A stretch of DNA of 64,000 bases from Hyphococcus sp. (GTDB taxonomy: Bacteria; Pseudomonadota; Alphaproteobacteria; Caulobacterales; Parvularculaceae): assembly GCA_028289605.1 (NCBI GenBank), contig JANQON010000009.1:186001-250000 (forward strand), written 5' to 3'. The translations under genes were made by a program, and so were the position numbers. Shown in pieces: positions 53,394 through 54,625 of this stretch (its first letter is position 1; each line of letters opens with the position of its first letter). The notes under the pieces are model-generated. The model worked only from the letters and a program-made list of their open reading frames with translations, had not been told where the DNA came from and did not search any database.

Positions 53394-53451
53394 GGCGCCG
53401 TGAACGGCGCCGACTAACCGCCTGACCGAATCGATAACGCAATCGATTCGG
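53394..53451 (+). terminator. Pair of hairpins downstream of glutamate dehydrogenase gene
   Basis: GGCGCC-gtgaac-GGCGCC (53394-53411) is followed by CCGAATCGAT-aacgca-ATCGATTCGG (53426-53451), a perfect 10-bp stem. There is no T-tract. They probably protect or end the upstream transcript. Confidence 0.5.
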
Positions 53452-53460
53452 GCAAGTGCG

Positions 53461-53546
53461 CAATAAGTACACTTTAAATAATCCGCGAACAGGGTTCCAC
53501 TTATTGGTGTAGGGCACTCCCGCTCTACCCAATAAGGAGACTCACA
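53461..53546 (+). promoter_or_regulatory. Leader with mutually exclusive pairings over the ribosome binding site
   Basis: Arm 1 (CAATAAGT, 53461-53468) and arm 3 (CAATAAGG, 53530-53537) can each pair with arm 2 (ACTTATTG, 53499-53506). The arm 2-arm 3 hairpin extends to about 11 bp with one bulge and a 12-base loop, and takes in AAGG of the AAGGAG ribosome binding site of the gene at 53547. The pattern fits a translational switch. If transcription starts downstream of arm 1, the first dyad is instead a DNA element. Confidence 0.5.
53503..53511 (-). promoter_or_regulatory. ACACCAAT motif in the leader at 53.5 kb
   Basis: TACACCAATAAGTGG on the minus strand overlaps arm 2 of the leader, 36 bases before the gene at 53547. 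It may be part of the RNA structure rather than a protein site. Confidence 0.25.
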
Positions 53547-53933
53547 ATGTTGGATAAATCTTTGATTGACGAGCAAAAACGCCTTCTCGTTGCAGAAAAT
53601 ACACTTAAAAATCAGGCGAAGAGAATTGCGTCGGGACGCGGTGTCAGTCCTGCAATCGTCAATGGTGCGGTTGCCGCAGCGATCGCGGCCGGAACCGCCG
53701 CGGCGATAAAGCTTGGCGATGCGACCCCCTTCGCCTATGCTGAGAAGCTGGCCGAGGCAAATCGGTCTCTCGAAGGTAAAGAGCTTATCGTGGCGCTGGC
53801 GGATATTATGTCCGCGGGTCACGCCGCCATTGAGCAGCTTGCCGTGAACGGCGGCTTTCTGATCGCTGAAGCGAGCGGCGGCACGCCAAAGGAACTGGTT
53901 TCGGAGGTTGTTCGGTTATCGCTGAATATCTGA
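53547..53933 (+). CDS. Uncharacterised soluble helical protein behind structured leader
   Basis: I do not recognise this 128-residue protein. It has a charged helical N-terminus (DEQKRLLVAENTLKNQAKRIASGRG), an Ala-rich middle (NGAVAAAIAAGTAAAIKLG, possibly a membrane-active or buried helix) and no signal peptide. The ribosome binding site AAGGAG lies at the base of a predicted hairpin, so expression may be controlled at translation. Its stop (TGA 53931) overlaps a possible in-frame extension of the next gene, a membrane protein, suggesting the two form a pair. Confidence 0.7.
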   Translation: MLDKSLIDEQKRLLVAENTLKNQAKRIASGRGVSPAIVNGAVAAAIAAGTAAAIKLGDATPFAYAEKLAEANRSLEGKELIVALADIMSAGHAAIEQLAVNGGFLIAEASGGTPKELVSEVVRLSLNI

Positions 53934-53977
53934 CAGTCCTAGGAAACTCCGGCTGGGCGGCGATCGTCATTGGCGTA

Positions 53978-54625
53978 TTGTTGCTGGCGCTCGCCTCCCG
54001 GTCGAACCACATCATCAGGGCGACGTTGATTGTCGTAGCGCTGTGGCTGAGTTCGGTCGCCGCCTATTCATTCTTCTACCCTGATTACCTGTTGCGGCTG
54101 GGCCTCGACGCCGCCGCAACCGGGCTGTTCGTGTTTTTATGGCGCCGGACCTCCGGCGCCATCGCCAACCTGTATCGCGATCTTGGCTTTCTGCACGGAA
54201 TCTATGTTGCGGTGATGCTGTTTACGCCCATCGCACGATATGTCAGCGGCGCGCCGCCCATAAAAGATACAGAATCACAAAGCGAATTCTATCTTGTGGC
54301 GGCTGTTTCAGACGCTGTCTTCGTCCTGGTGCTGGCCTATGTTTCGGTTTACGCCGTAGGCAAGACCTTCCTTGATCTGCGCTCAGGCTGGGGCAACATG
54401 AAAAACGCCGCGGAAGCCTTTCAGCGAACCGTCGCCAGCGAAAGCGCCAAGGAACAGGGCTTCGCACCGCGCGCCGGTTACGACGCCGTGGAAGACCACG
54501 AAGCGACCCACCGTGTGCGGGCCGTATTCGGCCGCTTGTTTCCGCCGCCCAAAGTGCTCGCAAAGGCCCTGCGCCGGGCTCGAACCGAGTTCGAGAAGCC
54601 GCCAGGGGATAAGACGAGCCGCTGA
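53978..54625 (+). CDS. Uncharacterised membrane protein with three or four helices
   Basis: Hydrophobic segments are IIRATLIVVALWLSSVAAYSFF, LGLDAAATGLFVFLW, GIYVAVMLFTPIA and FYLVAAVSDAVFVLVLAYVSVYAV, followed by a charged cytoplasmic tail of about 80 residues. No known family was recognised. The track start is TTG 53978 and lacks a good ribosome site. The frame is open upstream and reads ...TVLGNSGWAAIVIGVLLLALASRSN, which would complete a first membrane helix; a non-standard CTG at 53930 overlapping the previous stop is one way to start there. The true start is unresolved. Confidence 0.65.
   Translation: MLLALASRSNHIIRATLIVVALWLSSVAAYSFFYPDYLLRLGLDAAATGLFVFLWRRTSGAIANLYRDLGFLHGIYVAVMLFTPIARYVSGAPPIKDTESQSEFYLVAAVSDAVFVLVLAYVSVYAVGKTFLDLRSGWGNMKNAAEAFQRTVASESAKEQGFAPRAGYDAVEDHEATHRVRAVFGRLFPPPKVLAKALRRARTEFEKPPGDKTSR

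Follow-up and report, generated by a model that had tools for sequence, protein, structure and literature searches.

A probable translation brake in Parvularculaceae leaders that keep a ribosome-binding-site hairpin without keeping its sequence

Hairpins that sequester the Shine-Dalgarno (SD) sequence of the gene behind them are known in several settings. In leaders of the MS2 coat type, which are static brakes, a stable stem at the ribosome binding site (RBS) must open for initiation. In the leaders of the IS10 and IS50 transposase genes and of T4 gene e, the anti-SD arm lies just 5' of the SD and the hairpin insulates the gene from read-through transcription. In ROSE and fourU thermometers, the SD is base-paired next to the start codon. 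Here we describe a leader from a Hyphococcus sp. that resembles each of these: its RBS stem would have to open for initiation, its anti-SD arm lies just 5' of the SD, with a transcription start between the arms possible, and the paired SD adjoins the start codon. It differs from the MS2 coat-type brakes in that the pairing recurs in homologues whose sequences are unrelated and whose registers are shifted, and in that the genes belong to an uncharacterised family with CtrA-type promoters. Unlike at the IS10, IS50 and T4 loci, no mobile element or phage gene was recognised, and upstream promoter-like elements suggest that the hairpin is part of the normal transcript. Unlike the thermometers, it is predicted to be stable to 60 °C, matches no family and has no weak melting helix. 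On the promoter side, it resembles the CtrA promoters of Caulobacter (PMC4287350), with TTAA-N7-TTAA at promoter-like distances and CtrA encoded in the genome; the window's own site, a putative one, differs in matching 7 of 8 positions.

The leader precedes a 128-aa gene (53547-53933, forward strand) in the window, the whole stretch of 64,000 nucleotides that was analysed. The preliminary description of this DNA had pointed to the heptamer CAATAAG at 53461 (arm 1) and 53530 (arm 3), with its complement CTTATTG at 53500 (arm 2), and all three are exact and at these positions. It had also proposed that arms 2 and 3 form a helix of about 11 bp with one bulge; we observed that the bulge is present but that the helix, with 15 bp, is stronger than in that proposal. 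This RBS hairpin (53500-53536, forward strand) consists of an outer helix of 8 bp (53500-53507 with 53529-53536), the bulge U53508, an inner helix of 7 bp (53509-53515 with 53522-53528) and the loop ACUCCC (53516-53521), and reads CUUAUUGG-(U)-GUAGGGC-ACUCCC-GCUCUAC-CCAAUAAG. Its minimum free energy is -23.2 kcal/mol (z = -5.42), with outer pair probabilities of 0.97-1.0, and 0 of 200 dinucleotide shuffles were equally stable. Ordered triples of a 7-mer, its complement and the 7-mer again within 90 nt occur 22 times in the window against 4.4 times in dinucleotide-Markov sequence, so the three-arm pattern alone is unremarkable: the hairpin of arms 2 and 3 exceeds chance and the third arm does not. 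When the genome was searched for dispersed copies of the leader, it proved to be single-copy.

The SD, AAGGAG (53534-53539, forward strand), lies 7 nt upstream of the ATG at 53547; in sequence and fold, AAG is within the stem and GAG adjoins it. The proposed burial of AAGG is thus only roughly right, since G53537 is unpaired with a probability of 60%. A53538 is unpaired at 97%, and weak outer pairs with the upstream GGGUU engage G53539. The SD of the window is half covered, not fully buried. Compared with shuffles in which the SD was fixed, the leader is among the more unusual ones by hairpin energy (z = -4.4) and not by occlusion of the SD core, which is 42% unpaired and no better covered than in its own shuffles. 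With its GGAG core covered only in part, this leader may be a weaker brake than the leaders of relatives. The broader proposal, an RBS-occluding hairpin 5' of a gene without known family, was borne out.

The 128-aa protein is predicted with confidence to adopt an all-helical fold (AlphaFold2, pLDDT 90.7). We found no match of note in Pfam, PHROG, NCBIfam or PADLOC, no significant sequence relative in the PDB, and no fold match among PDB or viral models at E <= 0.001. Of 299 genomes sampled from across the order, 34 had family relatives in homologue searches, and all 34 are Parvularculaceae; named records come from Marinicaulis, Parvularcula and unclassified relatives. A long form of about 130 aa, to which the window protein belongs, is present in 11 genomes, all of the window's genus, and a short paralogue of about 105 aa in the same genus and neighbouring genera. 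A prophage or plasmid origin was also considered and rejected, there being no match in IMG/VR, in phages (short-form consensus as query) or in plasmids.

The typical order around the long-form gene is symporter, HTH protein, family gene, small membrane protein, ffh and rpsP; the short form likewise has an HTH gene upstream and a small membrane protein downstream. Most relatives whose loci could be read have a small membrane protein 3' of the gene, with the long form as with the short. The window gene has glutamate dehydrogenase upstream, and a membrane-protein ORF of 215 aa (53978-54625, forward strand; true start uncertain) and RF3 lie downstream. From locus comparison this ORF is the probable downstream partner; it did not cluster with the relatives' small membrane proteins by BLAST. 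The three-gene module (HTH, small helical and small membrane protein) is conserved in Parvularculaceae (L018, L022, L061-L066 and window 53547-54625), and some genomes have two copies, one close to ffh-rpsP and one close to an ABC-F-like gene; the window copy (53547-54625) is without the HTH gene.

The homologous leaders do not align (mean column identity 37%, with 3 rows from the wrong strand), and classical covariation was therefore replaced by accessibility statistics and arm-swapping. We observed that an RBS hairpin is nevertheless kept: most long-form leaders fold the SD into a stem right 5' of the ATG. Among the occluding stems are GGUCUUCU/AGAAGACC in L003, CUUCUCC/GGAGAAG in L004 and GUCUCCU/AGGAGAC in L006, and L008 has a long stem running from CCUCUUCUUGUUGC to GCAAGGAGAGG. 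The 92 control genes, identified by the length of their ORF and by their SD, belong to the same genus and family. The mean unpaired probability of the SD core is 0.11 in the 11 long-form leaders against 0.42 in the 92 controls (Mann-Whitney p = 4e-5; the p-values of these leader comparisons are optimistic because the leaders share ancestry). The core is less than 5% unpaired in 8 of 11 long-form leaders and in 10 of 92 controls (Fisher p = 2e-5), and opening the region -20..+12 costs 19.2 kcal/mol against 12.8 in controls (p = 4e-4). The ffh, rpsP, symporter and HTH leaders of the same loci show no such occlusion (p = 1e-4 and 2e-4). When the upstream part of each leader was shuffled with the SD fixed, the combined p was 5e-4 for occlusion and 1e-6 for energy. 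In arm-swapping, cognate arms pair better than exchanged ones (p = 2e-4); control genes show part of this effect through base composition, and against the control sets the excess is borderline (p = 0.053).

Divergent paralogues are partly alike, with the SD in or against stems (UCCUCCGU/ACGGAGGA in L112, UUCUCCG/CGGAGAA in L120), and in the short-form paralogues the occlusion is mostly absent. No conserved loop, single-stranded motif or aptamer-like sequence was found across the homologous leaders, and the short upstream ORFs seen by inspection in some of them, looked at for translational coupling, are not conserved. In the family, then, an SD stem occurs beyond chance and is conserved in homologues, as in SD-sequestering leaders; in the window only AAG is in the stem. 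Judging from these comparisons, SD occlusion appears to be maintained by selection in the long-form leaders.

We also considered the promoter side. A CtrA-type site matching at least 7 of 8 positions lies at -70 to -105 in 11 of 11 long-form leaders against 5 of 92 controls. In 5 of the 11 the box is perfect and starts at -72, -76, -70, -75 or -79; the window has a CtrA-like motif match, ATAA-N7-TTAA (7/8; 53463-53477, forward strand). The CtrA encoded in the genome has 89% identity to its Caulobacter counterpart (an approximate percentage). With CtrA present and such a site upstream, the gene is a candidate member of the CtrA regulon. In Caulobacter, full CtrA sites begin near -35 of activated promoters (first base about -35 to -39), and sites overlapping the -10 repress (PMC4287350). 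An additional TTAA is found at -102..-88 in 8 of 11 long-form leaders against 4% of controls, mostly 21-22 bp upstream of a second TTWA-type element. Applying the Caulobacter rule, two start sites are possible, near -60 or near -37. The first, favoured by the TTAA elements at -102..-88, would keep the hairpin in the mRNA. An EcfG-type promoter (GGAAC-N16/17-CGTT) was dropped because the -35 and the spacing are wrong in the four homologues concerned (L006, L007, L010 and L011), which have TGAAC or CTAAC, N15 and CGTT. Short-form leaders (e.g. L037, L040, L041 and L050) have another upstream motif in common, about AAGTTGT...GAGTACC, which suggests that the promoter of the short form differs from that of the long form.

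Taken together, the window leader is probably a brake on translation, selected and independent of sequence, that goes with a CtrA-type promoter. Computation supports the hairpin itself, shows it to exceed both shuffles and control genes, and finds it again in homologous leaders of unrelated sequence. Weighing against the brake are the partly exposed GGAG of the window, a window SD that stays partly paired even in folds of transcripts cut short of the anti-SD arm, the short-form paralogues that mostly do without such a stem, and the borderline outcome of arm-swapping against control sets. Once transcribed, 53500-53536 would fold into a stable hairpin engaging the 5' half of the SD, and its stiff stem would sit in the 30S landing zone; with the SD partly in the stem and the landing zone so obstructed, initiation on the 128-aa gene should drop strongly. 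We infer the transcription of the hairpin from the homologues' promoter-like elements at about -95 and -74, which would place the start near -60. Translation in cells would be lowered, selection would keep the hairpin for that reason, and a gene with a CtrA-type promoter would be kept at a low output until something opens or bypasses the hairpin. The hairpin is a further case of a known type of control, and its interest seems to come mainly from a function conserved without sequence. It offers testable evidence that selection can preserve RBS occlusion even as the sequence and the register of pairing are free to drift, a conservation that would escape covariance-model searches. Its position is of further interest, on an uncharacterised module (HTH, small helical and membrane protein) with CtrA-type sites that turned up in just one family of Caulobacterales-type bacteria.

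Since occlusion is so strong, some opening step seems needed, and on a signal a small RNA or an RNA-binding protein could open or lock the hairpin; such a protein might be the gene's own product or the HTH protein encoded next to it. The apparent selection on occlusion and the conservation of the module agree with such a factor acting in trans, but the homologues share neither a loop nor a single-stranded motif, which a shared factor would usually need, and Rfam gave no match at the gathering threshold (for the window leader none even at E <= 1). We regard this possibility as rather unlikely.

Somewhat more doubtful is a hairpin that silences read-through. A CtrA-activated start near -37, just 3' of the anti-SD arm, would give a translatable mRNA, and transcripts from upstream would carry the full hairpin and be silent. 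Applying the Caulobacter rule (PMC4287350) to the perfect CtrA boxes places 4 of 5 predicted starts at or just past the anti-SD arm; moreover, the gene upstream points in the same direction, and terminator prediction gave no intrinsic terminator ahead of the leader in the window. Against this, the anti-SD arms are pyrimidine-rich and hold no -10-like sequence, the TTAA that 8 of 11 leaders have at -102..-88 agrees with a start near -60 and a retained hairpin, and folding of 5'-truncated transcripts without the anti-SD arm did not free the window SD, which is still partly paired (0.26-0.36 unpaired). A variant of this, in which CtrA itself would select the type of mRNA, silent with the anti-SD arm from an upstream start and translated without it from a start between the arms, is in our opinion improbable. 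If it were true, a single CtrA box would link cell-cycle transcription with the translational licensing of a Parvularculaceae-specific module.

The preliminary description had further proposed a thermometer, a riboswitch or a three-way switch, and none of these was upheld. An SD-occluding stem next to the start codon does recall fourU and ROSE elements, and heat could in principle melt it and free the SD. However, heating from 20 to 60 °C leaves the predicted SD exposure of the window and long-form leaders almost unchanged, the stems are long and often GC-rich, and no Rfam thermometer matches, which makes thermal control very unlikely. The absence of an Rfam match and of a conserved loop or aptamer-like sequence also argues against a known riboswitch, and the two mutually exclusive folds of comparable energy that a three-arm riboswitch-type leader would have are not found, the competing structures being 11.7 kcal/mol apart. 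A switch in which arms 1 and 3 compete for arm 2 is hardly credible, since, with all three 7-mers present and 8 bp possible between arms 1 and 2, the best structure with that helix is 11.7 kcal/mol worse (probability 2.6e-9), no equivalent of arm 1 was found in any homologous leader, and arm 1 (53461-53467) overlaps the CtrA-like motif at 53463-53477, in a part of the leader where every homologue has such a motif. For these three reasons arm 1 is probably promoter DNA rather than an RNA arm.

Two further elements were observed beside the brake and its homologues. Between the glutamate dehydrogenase stop and the leader, sequence and fold show a palindrome, CCGAATCGAT-N6-ATCGATTCGG (53426-53451, forward strand), with a perfect 10-bp stem and two GANTC (CcrM-type) sites at 53428 and 53445; it is not an intrinsic terminator because no U-run follows, and none was called there. 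Among the control leaders, four relatives surfaced with an alignable, strongly structured CATGGGACCTCTCCGCAAGA...TTTGCGAGGTTCCATG beside an ORF of about 400 aa (L056 ~6008, L057 ~5051 and L058 ~6722 on the forward strand, L059 ~6541 on the reverse strand; coordinates on the named strand), and this may be a separate conserved RNA element.
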